From a virus, in IMG/VR virus record IMGVR_UViG_3300047364_000031, positions 1 to 24,586 of that record: a stretch of DNA of 24,586 bases. One strand, 5' to 3'. The notes under the pieces were generated by a model. It saw nothing but the letters and a program-made list of their open reading frames with translations. It did no database searches and was not told where the DNA came from. This document shows positions 1 to 17,688 of this stretch, one piece after another; positions within the stretch are counted from its first letter, which is position 1, and each line of letters opens with the position of its first letter. A program made the translations under genes and the position numbers.

Positions 1-1477
1 CCATCTGTATATTATTACATCTAGCAATCTCCTTAGTCAGTTCAATAGAAGGATTCTTTTCATACTCTTGCTTTGCTTTGATCATCTTCTTCTTGAAGAT
101 GACCCTAGAGTCATACATCTTCTGCATCATCAATGGTAAGAAACCATGCTTATCTTTACTGTACTGTGCTCCATTAGCACACACAGCAAACTCACCATCT
201 ATCTCAGTCTCTTTCTTTAAGATCCCTTCAACGCTCGCACTGGGATGGCGAACCTCTCTGAGGGTTTCTGGGGAAATATTATATTGCATAATAAGATGAG
301 GATACAAGCTATTGAGGTCAAAATTAACAACCCAATCATAGAATCCTGGTTTCGGTTCCTTGACATAAGCACCTGCATACTTCTTTGTTTTATCATTTTG
401 TGTCTTAGGAGGAATAGCAATGTTCCTCTTCAACAGTTCCACATAGATATAGTTATCCCACATGCGAACCTGACTGAACACATCTTCATAATTTACCTTA
501 GCATCATATGCCATGGTGTATGCAAGTTCGATCAGTTTCATCTTATCGTCTAGTTTATCGACAAGACGAACGTCATGAATATTATACTCAATAAATTTCT
601 GCCAATCGTTCTCATAGAACTCTTTGAATGTATCAAACTCAGAGTGATCTAGTTTCTTCTCATTTAGTTCCACATTGCAGATGTGGTCTAAACGATAGGA
701 CTCTTGGTTTGTATAAGTGAATTTCCTGTATAACTCAAGGTAATCTAAACATGAAATACCAAGAGTATCAATAGCAAATTGTTTACGACCTTTGATAAAG
801 ATCTCACGTTGTGATACCAATCTCCATGGAGAAAGAAGTTTTACAAACTTATCACCAAGTACACGATCAATACGATTGTGTATGTATGGCATATCAAACA
901 ACTGTACGTTCCATCCTGTAATAACATCAGGATAGTTCTCTTGCCAGTATGAAAGAAATGCACTAAGCATAGCATCTTCAGACTTGAAGTGCATGTAATC
1001 CACCATAGGATCTGTATTATTAAATGCTCGTGCTCCGAACACAGTAATACGACCAGTGAAACTATCTTTGATTGAGATAGCAAGTATCTCCTGATCAGCA
1101 GATTCTATATCAGGAAATCCATTCTCAGCAGCAGTCTCGATGTCAATAGTAAAGACACGGATCTTGGTGCTATCAAATTTAATCTGATCTTCTGTATGCT
1201 GTTCAGCAATATACTGATACAAGAACCTAGAGTTCCCATATATTTGAAAATCTTCTACTTCCTTGTACTGTCTTACAAAATCTCTTGCCTCAGCAATTGA
1301 TCCAAACTTATGAGGTTCTACACAGTCTCCTTCTAGTGTACGCCATTCTGAATAATTCTTTGTAGGCAGATACATCGTGGGGTTAAAAGGAACCCTCACA
1401 TTGTACCTATTGCCATTCTCATAACCACGGACAAGCAGACGGTTGCCTGCTTGCTCTACACTAGTGTAAAAATTCAT
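1..1477 (-). CDS. gp43: DNA polymerase gp43, family B (3' end beyond the window)
   Basis: Replicative family B DNA polymerase of the T4 type. The frame is open from the ATG at 1477 to the left edge; 492 codons are visible, about half the usual length. The 3'-5' exonuclease domain is complete: Exo I TIDIET (D112, E114, the same numbering as T4), Exo II GWNVQLFD (residues 188-195) and Exo III YNIHD (298-302). Polymerase motif A, DLNSLYP, starts at D387. Motifs B and C would lie outside the window. The ATG overlaps the stop of the preceding Sm-like gene as ATGA, so translation is probably coupled. It is expected to work with the clamp gp45 and loader gp44/gp62 encoded upstream. Identity is certain; the C-terminal half cannot be judged here. 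Confidence 0.97.
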   Translation of the reverse strand, partial: MNFYTSVEQAGNRLLVRGYENGNRYNVRVPFNPTMYLPTKNYSEWRTLEGDCVEPHKFGSIAEARDFVRQYKEVEDFQIYGNSRFLYQYIAEQHTEDQIKFDSTKIRVFTIDIETAAENGFPDIESADQEILAISIKDSFTGRITVFGARAFNNTDPMVDYMHFKSEDAMLSAFLSYWQENYPDVITGWNVQLFDMPYIHNRIDRVLGDKFVKLLSPWRLVSQREIFIKGRKQFAIDTLGISCLDYLELYRKFTYTNQESYRLDHICNVELNEKKLDHSEFDTFKEFYENDWQKFIEYNIHDVRLVDKLDDKMKLIELAYTMAYDAKVNYEDVFSQVRMWDNYIYVELLKRNIAIPPKTQNDKTKKYAGAYVKEPKPGFYDWVVNFDLNSLYPHLIMQYNISPETLREVRHPSASVEGILKKETEIDGEFAVCANGAQYSKDKHGFLPLMMQKMYDSRVIFKKKMIKAKQEYEKNPSIELTKEIARCNNIQM

Positions 1478-1734
1478 TCAAGACATTCAAGATAACGAGC
1501 AAGTAATGAATTACTTGGATTAGTAACAACGGTCAAATCAGAAGATCTAACATTAAACTCACGCTCAGAAGAATATTCTGCCCATGCTTTTAGTTGACCC
1601 TCTGAGTCTACCACATAAGGTTCAATCATCCATACATCAGGGTCACCTGGTAAAGTGTCACTAGTTTCTATTGGTTCTACCTGAGCAACGATCCACTCAT
1701 TCTGCAGCTTGATTAGGTTCGCTGTTATCTCCAT
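1474..1734 (-). CDS. Sm-like small beta-barrel protein, third of a tandem trio
   Basis: An 86-aa protein just upstream of DNA polymerase. It follows the pattern of its two upstream neighbours: an N-terminal strand (NLIKLQNEWIVAQVE), a central MIEPYVV segment near residue 36, and a later strand (SSDLTVVTNP) before a short C-terminal helix. This resembles the Sm/LSm barrel known from cyanophage-type proteins. It is the most diverged of the trio: the KWNPY-type motif is reduced to WAEY. A GAGGA Shine-Dalgarno sits 8 nt before the ATG at 1734. The start overlaps the preceding gene by 38 nt and the stop overlaps the gp43 start as ATGA. Fold assignment is inference from pattern; RNA binding is untested. 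Confidence 0.7.
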   Translation of the reverse strand: MEITANLIKLQNEWIVAQVEPIETSDTLPGDPDVWMIEPYVVDSEGQLKAWAEYSSEREFNVRSSDLTVVTNPSNSLLARYLECLE

Positions 1735-2119
1735 TAGTTTTTTCCTCAGTAAAGAATAGATCTTTGTCAGTAATATTGTATTGTGCTAGTTCACCCACAT
1801 AGTTGGTAAGTATTCCATCATCAGGGAATGTTACACTAACAATATGTTCACCATTCACCTTAAACTCCTGAATAGGAGTGTATGGACACCAGCGAGAATA
1901 TGTGATGGGTATAGTACCATCTTCATTTGTCTTACCCAATGCAAGAGTAAAAGGATATAACATCTTATATCCAACCACTCTATCATCTTTGTCTTTAACA
2001 TCACCAAACAAACAGAGAACTGTTTCTTTAGTCGATAGCATCACCAGGCGAATATTGTGGTTCGTCCGTAGTGGTGGTGGAGTCTGTTGTTGTGTCTGCT
2101 CCTGTGGTGTCTCGGTCAT
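1697..2119 (-). CDS. Sm-like small beta-barrel protein, second of the trio
   Basis: A 140-aa ORF with the same architecture as the gene before it: IRLVMLSTKETVLCLF (residues 23-38) as first strands, MLYPFTLALG (53-62), SRWCPYTP (75-82), then FKVNG and IVSVTFP, and a C-terminal segment. These line up with LTLKTGDRVIAEL, MEEPYILEL, SKWNPYSS and the later strands of the upstream protein. The first 20 residues are Gln/Pro/Thr-rich and overlap the upstream gene by 92 nt. An internal ATG at 2041 would remove that overlap and give 114 aa, but would cut off part of the first conserved strand, so I keep 2119. No clean Shine-Dalgarno decides between them. Confidence 0.72.
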   Translation of the reverse strand: MTETPQEQTQQQTPPPLRTNHNIRLVMLSTKETVLCLFGDVKDKDDRVVGYKMLYPFTLALGKTNEDGTIPITYSRWCPYTPIQEFKVNGEHIVSVTFPDDGILTNYVGELAQYNITDKDLFFTEEKTNGDNSEPNQAAE

Positions 2120-2450
2120 TTTGTCCGTATACCTCTCGTTTTTCAGTAATTTTGTTTTTGTATGCTTCTTCCAATCCTTTCTCAGGATTGCTGATAGTCA
2201 TCACACTATCATAAGGGATCTTGAATTGCCAGTCAGAAGAGTATGGATTCCATTTACTAAACCTGATCTGATATTCTGCACCTGCTGCTTCTGTCAGAAA
2301 CTGTGGTGTAGAACCATCTAGTTCTAGGATGTATGGTTCTTCCATGAGAAGACAGATACCTTTACGGTCTGCACCTTCCTCATCGAAGATCTCTTTCAAC
2401 TCAGCAATGACACGATCACCAGTCTTTAATGTAAGAATAGATACTGCCAT
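2028..2450 (-). CDS. Sm-like small beta-barrel protein, first of the trio
   Basis: A 140-aa protein. It shows LTLKTGDRVIAELKE (residues 6-20), LLMEEPYILEL (34-44), FSKWNPYSS (64-72), FKIPYDSVMTISNP (76-89) and a helical stretch ending near residue 105. The rest is a Thr/Asp-rich low-complexity tail, up to residue 140. This order matches Sm-like proteins of cyanophage origin, one of which has been solved crystallographically (recalled, not looked up). It is the first gene after the hsp20 terminator, so the polymerase transcript must start close by. The acidic tail is encoded in the 92 nt that overlap the next gene. Function is unknown; an RNA-binding, Hfq-like role is inference. Confidence 0.75.
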   Translation of the reverse strand: MAVSILTLKTGDRVIAELKEIFDEEGADRKGICLLMEEPYILELDGSTPQFLTEAAGAEYQIRFSKWNPYSSDWQFKIPYDSVMTISNPEKGLEEAYKNKITEKREVYGQNDRDTTGADTTTDSTTTTDEPQYSPGDAID

Positions 2451-3018: not shown

Positions 3019-3444
3019 TTATGTTTCGGTTTTCTTCCTACCGATATTATACTTACTTTCTAATGTCCAATCGTTCTTCTCTTTAAATGAAAGAACTTTA
3101 ATCTGGTTCAGTGGTGCCAGATCAGAAATTTGTTCTACATTTACTACACTAAGAAGTCCCCAATCACTCAAGAGTTGTACAATACGATTACGACGTTGTA
3201 CATCATTCAATGAAAGATTTGTTTTCTTTCCATCAAGTGCGAAGAGTTCCTTGAAATGAACTATGTAATACTTACCTTGCTTGTGTAGAATATGACATGA
3301 TTGATAGATCTTTTTTTCTTTACGTGATGCAACACCAATTCTTGTTAGTGTCTCTCTCACTTTAAGAAAGTCATCTGGTTCACCGAGAACCACTTCTACC
3401 ATATCAGTTTGTTTCCACTGAATTTCGATAACCTCATCACTCAT
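3019..3444 (-). CDS. regA: RegA translational repressor
   Basis: A 141-aa homologue of T4 RegA (122 aa), which binds start regions of early phage mRNAs and blocks ribosome loading. Recognition rests on the N-terminal EIQW...MVEVVLGEPDDFLKVRETLTRIG, the central ILHKQGKYYIVHFKELFALDGK, and NDVQRRNRIVQLLSDWGLL. The order gp62-regA is the T4 order. The ATG overlaps the gp62 stop as ATGA. In T4 the next gene is gp43; here hsp20 and three Sm-like genes lie between. Early replication mRNAs such as gp44, gp45 and gp62 are the known targets in T4; targets here are inferred. Confidence 0.93.
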   Translation of the reverse strand: MSDEVIEIQWKQTDMVEVVLGEPDDFLKVRETLTRIGVASRKEKKIYQSCHILHKQGKYYIVHFKELFALDGKKTNLSLNDVQRRNRIVQLLSDWGLLSVVNVEQISDLAPLNQIKVLSFKEKNDWTLESKYNIGRKKTET

Positions 3445-3987: not shown

Positions 3988-4127
3988 TTAAAAACAGCGG
4001 TGACACTAACGACTCTGGCGTTAGGATTTCTTGCAAGAGCAACCTCACGTGCTTCTTGGTAGTTGCGACAAACAACATCTTCTGTAAAGACTGTTCCAGC
4101 AACATAGAGTTTAACTTCGCACTTCAT
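3984..4127 (-). CDS. 47-aa conserved-looking small protein
   Basis: A small gene reading MKCEVKLYVAGTVFTEDVV at its start, then CRNYQEAREVALARNPNARV and VSVTAVFK. The pattern is strand, strand, helix, strand: a compact alpha/beta mini-domain. The stop overlaps the next ATG as ATGA, and the start lies 17 nt inside the 3' end of the methylase gene. Both couplings, plus the absence of any alternative gene in this gap, support it as real. Function unknown. Confidence 0.7.
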   Translation of the reverse strand: MKCEVKLYVAGTVFTEDVVCRNYQEAREVALARNPNARVVSVTAVFK

Positions 4128-4950
4128 AATTTGTTAGGACTAATTCCTTTCTTGATGCTTGATCTGTATTATAGCACCCCACAGACCTCATGGTGTAAGT
4201 GTGTGCAAATTCTCCAACTGACCACTCCTTGAAACGATCCTTAACAAGTTGGGAACTATTATATGATATTAACATAGGAGATGTAAAGGTATCACAATCA
4301 GAAGCAAAGTGATCATGATTAAATCTCTTATGCATATCACCTTTCTTACCATAAAGATTATCCTTTATATCATAAGGAGGATCTAAGTATGAAAATACAT
4401 CTTTCTCATCTGTCAACATTCTCTCATAAGAAAGATTTGTTATTGTCCAACTCTGTATCAATTCTTGATATCCTGTAAGTTTTTCAATGCCACGTGTTGA
4501 GAAGTTGGAGTCTGATGCCTGTCCAGAAAATGATGAAGACTCAGTGAGACCACTGAAGCTACACTTATTAACGATATAAAAAGCGACGGCACGAGCAAGG
4601 TTAGATTTTTCTTTGTCATTAATAACATCCTTCATTTCTAGAAACAAACATCTTGCTGAGTCTTGGTTGCAATGTACTGCCTTAAGACCCAACAATTCTT
4701 TCTGTAGATCTTCACCATTATGTTGTAGTTCACACCAGAAATTATGAAGAGGTTCATATAGATCATTGACCCATACCTCAATATGAGGATACCTCTTTGT
4801 AATTTCCAATGATACAGACCCACCACCTAGAAAGGGTTCACGAAACTCTCTTACATTAGAAAGGTCTGGAAGATACTGTAGTAACTTTACTACTGCTCTA
4901 CTTTTACCACCAGGATAACGTAGTGGGGTCTTTAAGGATTTGATACTCAT
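4111..4950 (-). CDS. dam: Dam-type N6-adenine DNA methyltransferase (D12 class)
   Basis: A 279-aa SAM-dependent methylase that transfers a methyl group to adenine N6. Motifs appear in the alpha-class order: PLRYPGGKSR (residues 9-18, motif X), FREPFLGGGSV (36-46, SAM-binding motif I), NKCSFSGLT in the middle and catalytic DPPY at 190-193. Length fits the Dam/D12 family. The start overlaps the oxygenase stop as ATGA. The target is not visible from sequence; GATC is typical of the family. Likely roles are protection from host restriction or marking of phage DNA. No partner endonuclease of a restriction system is seen. Confidence 0.92.
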   Translation of the reverse strand: MSIKSLKTPLRYPGGKSRAVVKLLQYLPDLSNVREFREPFLGGGSVSLEITKRYPHIEVWVNDLYEPLHNFWCELQHNGEDLQKELLGLKAVHCNQDSARCLFLEMKDVINDKEKSNLARAVAFYIVNKCSFSGLTESSSFSGQASDSNFSTRGIEKLTGYQELIQSWTITNLSYERMLTDEKDVFSYLDPPYDIKDNLYGKKGDMHKRFNHDHFASDCDTFTSPMLISYNSSQLVKDRFKEWSVGEFAHTYTMRSVGCYNTDQASRKELVLTNYEVRS

Positions 4951-5546
4951 CTAAAATAAGGTTTCTGGAAACTAATATTAAAAGATAAACTTATTCTATC
5001 ATCATCTGTCTGATTTGCATAGACCCCATGATTAAGGAATCCAGGAAACAACATAATCATACCTGGTTGAGGAGTAATCCTCATACTCTGTGATTTATGA
5101 TGAAGTATAAAAGAGTTTATCTGTTGTGGTACAGGACACTCAATAAAAAACTGACCTTGATCTCCCTTTACCTTATGATAATAAACACCAGCAATTTCAT
5201 GGTGGGCATGAGAATGAACATGTGCGTATTGACCTTTACCAAATCTAGAAAGCCATGAAGCAGCAATAACGTAGTTTGCTTGACCATCATAATCCACTGA
5301 TTCTTGAAATTTAATTCCTTCAAGAAAATTACCGACATGCCTGAAGATTTCATTCTTTGTAGTCTGCATCCTATCGATAGGATTATCAACAAAATTAGGA
5401 TCAGAAAGTTGGTGATTGTTACCCCAATTTGGATTGGTTTTAAACTCACTCTCTTCTACTAATCCCGCAACCTCTTCCTGAATAGCATCATAGTTATCAA
5501 CATTGGAATAATATAAAGGTGTTGAAAATAAATTGTCAATTGCCAT
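4947..5546 (-). CDS. 2OG-Fe(II) oxygenase
   Basis: A 199-aa non-haem iron dioxygenase using 2-oxoglutarate. The His-rich AHVHSHAHHEIAGVYYH (residues 108-124) carries the first iron-ligand region, FPGFLNHGVYAN (167-178) supplies the distal His (H173), and DRISLSFNI (183-191) holds the Arg (R184) expected to bind 2OG. This matches the phage family often labelled 2OG-FeII_Oxy_5. A longer ORF starts at 5648, but its first 34 residues are a low-complexity Asn/Arg/Gln run out of another gene; the ATG at 5546 has AAGGA just upstream. Substrate unknown (protein, nucleotide or DNA). Confidence 0.88.
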   Translation of the reverse strand: MAIDNLFSTPLYYSNVDNYDAIQEEVAGLVEESEFKTNPNWGNNHQLSDPNFVDNPIDRMQTTKNEIFRHVGNFLEGIKFQESVDYDGQANYVIAASWLSRFGKGQYAHVHSHAHHEIAGVYYHKVKGDQGQFFIECPVPQQINSFILHHKSQSMRITPQPGMIMLFPGFLNHGVYANQTDDDRISLSFNISFQKPYFR

Positions 5547-6033
5547 TGTTTTCCTTCGGGTAATAATAAAGTTCTTGTTTTTGTTCCTTCTTTGGTTTAG
5601 TCTTTGGTGCTGATTTGGTCGTTGGTTTACGTAAACGAGAGTTAGCACCCTTGATGTTTACATTCTTCCAGTTCATACCATTAGAATACTTATTGTCACT
5701 TGGGAGTTTAGTAACAGTTTCTTCAAGATCAACCTCTTTCTCATAATCAATCATCAAGTCTGGTGAGTGCATAGAGTACATAGATTGACCCCACTCTTTC
5801 TGTAGGAACTTAGTTGGTCTCTCATAACAATAAAGTTGATTCAACTCTTTGTCCATATAAATCTTTATCTTATTTGCCGCAATGAATTCCCAACTAAATT
5901 CTTTGAACCATAAGTCTAGATCTACGTAAGCATCATTGTACTCTTCATCAATCTGAGTTCTAATCTCATTCTTACCAAAGGTTGATTTTGACTTTCCTAA
6001 TTTCAGATAGTAACGTGTTTTTTTCATTTCCAA
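5536..6033 (-). CDS. Hypothetical 165-aa protein with Lys-rich tail
   Basis: Not recognised. The N-terminal two thirds contain KTRYYLKLGKSKSTFGKNE, a Trp-rich DLDLWFKEFSWEFIAANKIKIYM stretch (split in the chain) and MYSMHSPDLMIDYEKE. The last 40 residues are Lys/Pro/Ser/Thr-rich and probably disordered. Start could be M1 or M3 (6033 or 6027). It overlaps the HNH-like gene upstream by 10 nt and the oxygenase downstream by 11 nt. Its place between an HNH-like gene and two DNA or protein modification enzymes suggests accessory cargo. Confidence 0.65.
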   Translation of the reverse strand: MEMKKTRYYLKLGKSKSTFGKNEIRTQIDEEYNDAYVDLDLWFKEFSWEFIAANKIKIYMDKELNQLYCYERPTKFLQKEWGQSMYSMHSPDLMIDYEKEVDLEETVTKLPSDNKYSNGMNWKNVNIKGANSRLRKPTTKSAPKTKPKKEQKQELYYYPKENNGN

Positions 6034-6386
6034 GATTCCTTAATGATTTGAACTACATGAGAGAAGTCTCCTGTGTAAGAAGCTTTCCCTAAATTAAACA
6101 CTCTAAGAGTTAGAGCAACATTATCAAATGTGTATCCTTTCTTATTCTCCAATCTATCTACAGATATTGCTAATGGATGTCTTGTTATGTAATTGTAACT
6201 TTCATCCAAAACAATATCAGACCAATGACATTTACCATCTTGATCTTGAAACTTCCTGATCAAATCATCAGGAGTAAGTTCAATGTCTTTGACAGTTAAA
6301 CCTTGACCCTTATTCTTTCTAGCAGCATTTCTGGTCTGACCAAATCTGATATTAGATATCAATTTTTTTGCTGTTTCTAGTTTCAT
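6024..6386 (-). CDS. HNH-endonuclease-like protein
   Basis: A 120-aa protein with a C-terminal segment typical of phage HNH/endonuclease VII-like proteins: DGKCHWSD (residues 50-57), ISVDRLENKKGYTFDNVAL (74-92) and FNLGK. The DR...GY..DNV spacing matches such families, but the usual catalytic first His is not evident (DR where DH might be expected), and only one Cys is present where Zn-binding relatives have pairs. It may be a degenerate or non-classical nuclease. The ATG forms a TAATG overlap with the 55-aa gene upstream. It lies in the block that splits gp44 from gp62, a plausible homing-type passenger. Confidence 0.6.
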   Translation of the reverse strand: MKLETAKKLISNIRFGQTRNAARKNKGQGLTVKDIELTPDDLIRKFQDQDGKCHWSDIVLDESYNYITRHPLAISVDRLENKKGYTFDNVALTLRVFNLGKASYTGDFSHVVQIIKESWK

Positions 6387-17182: not shown

Positions 17183-17211
17183 AGTATACCACTTAGTCAG
17201 GGTTTTGTAAA
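17183..17211 (-). promoter_or_regulatory. Sigma70-type promoter for the gp55 unit
   Basis: Minus strand TTTACA (17211-17206), exactly 17 nt, then TATACT (17188-17183): five of six consensus bases in each box with ideal spacing. Start would be near 17176, about 35 nt before the gp55 ATG. The -35 spans the junction of a 12-bp tandem repeat. Confidence 0.75.
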
Positions 17212-17222
17212 GGGTTTTGTAA
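17199..17222. repeat. 12-bp perfect tandem duplication at the gp55 promoter
   Basis: Two head-to-tail copies of AGGGTTTTGTAA (plus strand). Each copy offers TTTACA on the minus strand; the promoter-proximal one is at correct distance from the -10. Confidence 0.9.
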
Positions 17223-17228
17223 AAGGGG

Positions 17229-17268
17229 TTGACAAATCCTCAAAACCTGAGTAGGATAACTCTGTCAA
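17229..17268 (-). terminator. Imperfect hairpin, possible terminator after the UvsW/Sm-like unit
   Basis: Outer arms TTGACA/TGTCAA and inner arms ATCCTCA/TGAG-TA-GGAT fold into a bulged hairpin 21 nt past the Sm-like stop. On the minus strand it is followed by CCCCTTTT. The weak T run and the bulges make termination uncertain. Confidence 0.4.
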
Positions 17269-17289
17269 GGGTTCAGGAGGGTTGTAGCT

Positions 17290-17688
17290 TTAACTTCTCT
17301 TAAAGATACCCTCTAGAGATTTTTTCATTTCTTTTACAGAACCTACGTACCCCGAAGCACGGGGCAGTTTTTTTCCTCTACCTGCTAGAGATTTACCACT
17401 ATCTATTCTATTAAGGGTCTTTTGATAGAAGTCAACTATCTCTCCTTCAATCTCAGTAATGGTAATAACTTTGTCTTTAGGTATAATAAATTCATCTTCC
17501 ATTGTAGCATTCATCCATTCTTTCAAATGAAATCCTGATACTTCTAATGCACCCTGTCTTTTTCTAGCATTCTCTACAGAGAGAGGTCGATCCAACAATA
17601 TCCTATCCTCTTCAGTAAGATAAGATATTTTAGAGATGATCTCTTCACCCGATACTAATTTTAAATTTGCATAGAATTCTTCTTCCAT
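17290..17688 (-). CDS. Sm-like protein downstream of UvsW
   Basis: A 132-aa protein with the same opening plan as the trio before gp43: LKLVSGEEIISKISYL (residues 9-24), ILLDRPLSVE (30-39), LEVSGFHLKEW, then EFIIPKDKVITITEIEGEIV and a helical FYQKTLN. The last 40 residues are basic and probably disordered (SLAGRGKKLPRASGYVG), unlike the acidic or polar tails of the others. It starts 1 nt after the uvsW stop codon. RNA or DNA binding is plausible given fold and charge but is inference. Confidence 0.68.
   Translation of the reverse strand: MEEEFYANLKLVSGEEIISKISYLTEEDRILLDRPLSVENARKRQGALEVSGFHLKEWMNATMEDEFIIPKDKVITITEIEGEIVDFYQKTLNRIDSGKSLAGRGKKLPRASGYVGSVKEMKKSLEGIFKRS

Follow-up and report, generated by a model that had tools for sequence, protein, structure and literature searches.

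The stretch of DNA analyzed here (the window) is a virus record of 24.6 kb from IMG/VR. Its minus strand shows the gene order of a T4-like cyanophage, and the source virus is a marine phage of cyanobacteria. Read along this strand, the genes are gp45, gp44, other genes, gp62, regA, hsp20, A, B, C, and gp43. Genes A, B, and C are the three consecutive ORFs at 1474–2450 that an earlier note on this DNA had pointed out, and all three lie on the minus strand. Named relatives belong to the Kyanoviridae; one of them, ACG-2014e, shares 75% DNA identity across the entire trio. The features are listed below by position.

1–1477, minus: gp43, DNA polymerase, 5′ part, running off the window
1474–1477, minus: ATGA overlap of 4 nt, combining the stop of C and the start of gp43
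1474–1734, minus: gene C, 86 aa, Sm-like paralogue (phrog_483, DUF6561; T4-GC 177)
1697–2119, minus: gene B, 140 aa, middle Sm-like paralogue (phrog_431)
2028–2450, minus: gene A, 140 aa, Sm-like paralogue (phrog_431, DUF6561; T4-GC 176 of named cyanophages)
2472–2500, minus: promoter-like site, TTGACG (2500–2495), 17-nt spacer, TAAAAT (2477–2472), with TG before the second hexamer
2489–2506, minus: terminator-type hairpin GGGCAC-TTGACG-GTGCCC followed by a T run, between hsp20 and A
2520–2924, minus: hsp20, upstream of the A-B-C-gp43 unit
3019–3444, minus: regA, translational repressor
17290–17688, minus: gene D, 132 aa, fourth Sm-like paralogue, between uvsW and gp55 (phrog_471)

The coordinates give overlaps of 92 nt between A and B (2028–2119), 38 nt between B and C (1697–1734), and 4 nt between C and gp43, so that the trio does run into the polymerase gene through an ATGA, as the earlier note had read it. 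The 92 nt shared by A and B are used in different frames and encode low-complexity tails in both proteins, the tail of A being C-terminal; the final residues of B (NGDNSEPNQAAE) double as the start region of C. The motif that the earlier note had seen in two of the three genes is KWNPY at residues 66–70 of A and RWCPY at residues 76–80 of B, and C has KAWAEY at the equivalent place.

The interval between gp62 and gp44 (4111–6386, minus) holds a Dam-like methylase gene (4111–4950), recognized from where it lies and from its relatives, a 2OG-Fe(II) oxygenase gene (4947–5546, minus), and an endonuclease-like gene (6024–6386, minus). In phage P-HM2 (L007:2247–3645), restriction endonuclease and Dam methylase genes, as annotated, lie between hsp20 and the Sm-like genes.

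Kinship and fold of the Sm-like paralogues

Profile–profile comparison linked A to B with a probability of 98.7–99.0%, A to C with 98.3–98.5%, and B to C with 95%, using profiles of about 20 sequences each, or only four for B. The control families hsp20, RegA, and gp62, taken from the same loci, stayed below 10% against the A, B, and C profiles. By these sequence comparisons A, B, and C are diverged paralogues, which upholds the earlier proposal of diverged duplicates built on a common plan. A and C score 29.0 and 61.9 bits against DUF6561 (PF20198), a family without an assigned function, above the cut-off of 27, and D scores 33.5 bits against Pfam Sm_like (PF16243; cut-off 29.4). The divergent B reaches 14.9 bits and thus falls below the DUF6561 cut-off, yet it matches phrog_431 at 1.7e-31 and is related to A with 98.7% probability; all four proteins match phrogs (phrog_431, phrog_483, and phrog_471). 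The subthreshold score of B, taken by itself, might suggest a similarity due to chance or low complexity. Such an origin is ruled out, with negligible probability left to it, by the 95–99% probabilities with clean controls, by the profile matches of A and C in the PDB, and by the structural models.

When single sequences were searched against the PDB, entry 3by7 was matched weakly by A (0.012) and B (0.0026) and was not matched by C; with alignment-based profiles, the matches were 3e-11 for A and 5e-8 for C. This entry is an ocean metagenome protein described as “structurally similar to Sm/LSm-like RNA-binding proteins.” The AlphaFold models of A and C have mean pLDDT values of 85 and 92, and their top Foldseek matches are chains of 3by7 or its derivative TIP60, with TM scores of 0.76–0.90 to 3by7 chains. 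Sm/LSm chains rank after these, with E values of 2e-3 to 4e-2 and TM scores to the target of 0.35–0.68. The five-stranded barrel fold of A and C is thus like that of Hfq and Sm/LSm rings by model comparison, but the trio differs from these proteins in three respects. A Pfam search extended to E 10 gave the trio no match to LSM or Hfq. The A and C models begin with a strand and carry a helix at the C-terminal end (residues 91–112 of A and 75–85 of C), with no N-terminal helix before the first strand. The Sm1/Sm2 residues that contact RNA are an Asn in loop 3 and Arg-Gly in loop 5, and none of these canonical residues was seen in the loop alignment columns. A and B also differ from 3by7 itself in their long low-complexity tails.

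The Sm/LSm-type barrel of the earlier note therefore holds as a fold for A and C, and for B by homology to A, whereas membership of the canonical Sm or Hfq sequence families does not. We are nearly certain that A, B, and C are Sm-like paralogues in this sense. They belong to an already known phage family (3by7, Pfam Sm_like, DUF6561).

Gene D is linked to the remaining members with probabilities of 77–94%, with no link to B detected by profile–profile comparison. Relatives of D are labeled “methylamine utilization” in many GenBank records; this name is probably a misannotation, and the family evidence gives it no support. Other cyanophages carry a further 3by7-like gene, here called class X, in the same replication clusters and usually after gp44, examples being L012:3995–4288, L013:3998–4288, and L023:402–695, all after gp44. 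In the spacer between D and gp55 (17193–17289, minus), a sigma-70–type promoter-like site occurs in 41 of 47 distinct sequences, versus about 7 in shuffles, on which basis the gene for the late sigma factor gp55 may have an early promoter of its own.

Association with the polymerase gene across phages

All 16 phage genomes that were searched whole contain members of the family, with at least two paralogues in each. In 15 of the 16, A and C precede gp43 and D lies elsewhere; the other genome is that of pelagiphage Mosig (L011), which has an X-like relative of 3by7 near gp43, before it in gene order, and a D-like gene elsewhere. The gene context was surveyed more broadly in 422 sequences, namely the window itself, regions of phages, and viral contigs retrieved by searching with A, B, C, X, and D. 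As these contigs were found by family search, the counts describe the contexts of the family, not all phages; the A, B, and X searches made no demand for C. The commonest orders around gp43 are hsp20-A-C-gp43, hsp20-A-B-C-gp43, and hsp20-A-A-C-gp43; the A–C pair is the usual state and B a lineage-specific third gene. Among the genes recognized by the profiles used, C is the one directly before gp43 in 233/233 scorable contexts, and the two genes overlap in 229 of these (by 4 nt in 213 and by 1 nt in 16). A recognized A or B lies upstream of C in 223 of the 226 contexts with at least 1.5 kb of upstream sequence, and a few contigs lack A and have B at its position.

In phylogenetic trees, the C sequences form one clade and the B sequences another, each with full support. 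In the A-A-C type, the third gene is an additional one at the first position and belongs to another clade, which indicates that trios came about through additions at different positions or through relocation of a gene. For B itself, the tree tests rejected neither a grouping with that additional first gene (p-AU 0.46) nor one with the A of its own clade (p-AU 0.19). One scan of genome contigs for a cellular origin of the family returned three matches, all in phage gene order. The 5.16-Mb record CP070751.1, a Thermoplasmata archaeon MAG, carries a cyanophage-type gp62-regA-hsp20-A-C-gp43 order (L428:1007–3878), and this locus seems likely to be a mis-binned or joined piece of phage DNA.

Probable expression together with gp43

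About 70 nt separate hsp20 from A, and in the window the −35-like TTGACG of the promoter-like site in this spacer is the loop of the terminator-type hairpin. At a threshold of at least 9 of 12, a promoter-like site is present in 131 of 134 distinct hsp20–A spacers, as opposed to about 11 in shuffles, and in 115 of these 131 the −35 lies within the hairpin. Sites of this kind are not above chance in the regA–hsp20 spacer (15/141 versus about 21 in shuffles). Fused promoter–terminator cassettes of T4-like phages have been named PeSLs (PMC4503421, citing Arbiol 2010 and Comeau 2014). Going by the account in that citing paper, PeSLs likewise join a terminator hairpin and an early promoter in one short spacer, the difference being that in the window the hairpin loop consists of the −35 hexamer. 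Because the composite terminator–promoter is conserved in nearly all spacers, A-B-C-gp43 very probably constitutes an early transcription unit of its own.

A Shine–Dalgarno (SD) core is found at 58% of C starts and at 9% of gp43 starts, the latter being no more than the 11% of random local positions. This pattern fits translation of gp43 after C by coupling. The SD core is also lacking at several other replication genes of related phages (gp44, gp62, uvsW, and gp55), so its lack at gp43 counts as supporting evidence only. Together with the ATGA overlap, the pattern leads us to regard translational coupling of gp43 to C as likely. Joint production of the trio with the polymerase, as the earlier note had suggested, is thus the reading to which the constant C–gp43 adjacency, the shared promoter cassette, and the SD pattern all point.

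These signals raise the question of whether C matters chiefly as a translational control element that sets the level of gp43, its protein product being of little consequence. The ATGA or 1-nt overlap in 229/233 contexts and a gp43 without SD would suit such a role, as would the difference from T4, in which gene 43 is autorepressed at an upstream RNA operator (PMC3014915). At the gp43 starts of the present phages, a search for RNA structure of the T4 operator type gave nothing unusual (mean z 0.35). Coupling alone, however, needs no particular protein, whereas the C protein is conserved, with G30, P32, S64, and Y81 invariant across 45 diverse sequences. We consider this role for C very unlikely.

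Possible ring assembly and nucleic acid binding, and their implications

Assembly of the A, B, and C proteins into rings is quite probable by analogy with 3by7, the only relative with a solved structure. The PDB entry contains five chains, which we take to be a five-copy assembly of one protein, whereas the trio consists of three distinct paralogues encoded in one unit. Given these five chains, a hexamer with the 1:1:1 or 2:2:2 ratios named in the earlier note is not the default expectation, and each paralogue may form a separate ring.

Conserved residues bear on how such rings might differ. Gene product C is best conserved at G30, P32, C34, S64, P73, and Y81, among others; judging from strand order, G30–C34 and S64 presumably belong to the two pore-lining loops of Sm rings. 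The most conserved residues of A are W67, Y97, P39, G11, and P89. In the loop before the last strand, which lines the pore in Sm rings, the invariant residues of the trio clade differ for each paralogue: D81 in A (51/51), H92 in B (55/55), immediately preceding the strand, and R63, S64, and D66 in C (46/46). C has, in addition, an invariant GDPD stretch in the other pore-type loop, and its Cys34 is present in 97% of the pair and A-A-C phages but mostly replaced by Val in the trio clade. These paralogue-specific loop residues fit a division of labor, whether the paralogues share a ring or form separate ones.

A mixed A/C ring is suggested by the near-obligate pairing of the genes and by the paralogue-specific loop residues, and we propose it tentatively. 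A more far-reaching form, with A, B, and C in a single mixed Sm-type ring that is made in fixed proportion to the polymerase and binds phage RNA, appears unlikely. The paralogues could also form homopentamers resembling 3by7, each with a separate role, in which case the cluster would reflect tandem duplication and co-regulation only. In the TIP60 cage, which was designed from 3by7, the 3by7 protein provides the five-fold part (PMC12389965), and D and X, being located elsewhere in the genome, must work without A, B, or C as neighbors. Mean-field DCA on 196 distinct A–C pairs (effective number 88) gave within-protein couplings that fit the predicted strands, and couplings between A and C that were not above noise. 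Separate homopentamers account less readily for the near absence of C without an upstream A or B and for an order and overlaps that are kept despite great sequence divergence. We judge them credible but rather doubtful.

Known proteins with the Sm fold mostly bind RNA. RNA binding by A, B, and C, suggested by fold and context, has in our estimate slightly less than an even chance. The rings might instead serve as a replisome accessory or scaffold, binding the gp43 protein or its DNA and not RNA. The fixed place by gp43 in the gp45-gp44-gp62-regA cluster, the position of D beside uvsW and uvsY, and the location of most A invariants (W67, P69, Y97, and P39) outside the pore loops are all compatible with a replisome role, but gene adjacency does not prove contact, and the RNA-binding habit of the fold speaks against it. 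On balance, a replisome ring of this kind is unlikely.

The explanation that we favor overall, with moderate confidence, combines early expression, coupling, and rings with nucleic acid. A-B-C-gp43 would be transcribed as one early unit from the composite terminator–promoter after hsp20, and gp43 would be translated by coupling to C through the ATGA overlap. The paralogues, which diverged from an Sm-like ring protein of phages, would form small rings that combine A (or B) with C. The rings would bind single-stranded nucleic acid, probably RNA, via the pore-lining loops, and during gp43 synthesis they would act either on phage mRNA or at the replication complex.

Both the family and its fold were known before, and recent GenBank records (Sf-FP1) even call A “Sm-like.” The present analysis adds the linkage of these genes as a pair or trio, the nearly constant association of that group with gp43, the promoter cassette, and the placing of A, B, C, D, and X in one family; in the open-access papers searched, we found no account that connects Sm-like proteins of phages with the polymerase. 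T4-like cyanophages rank among the most abundant marine viruses, and their Sm-like paralogues have been filed as hypothetical, DUF6561, or “methylamine utilization” proteins. Recognizing one Sm-like family with a solved relative, and its nearly constant link to the polymerase gene, turns several conserved genes that lacked an assigned function into one testable question, namely which nucleic acid the Sm-like rings hold and why the polymerase is made with them. As far as we are aware, mixed Sm rings have been described only in eukaryotes. A mixed A/B/C ring, if real, would have no precedent in phages or bacteria, and its occurrence outside eukaryotes would inform how hetero-oligomeric Sm rings evolve from duplicated genes.
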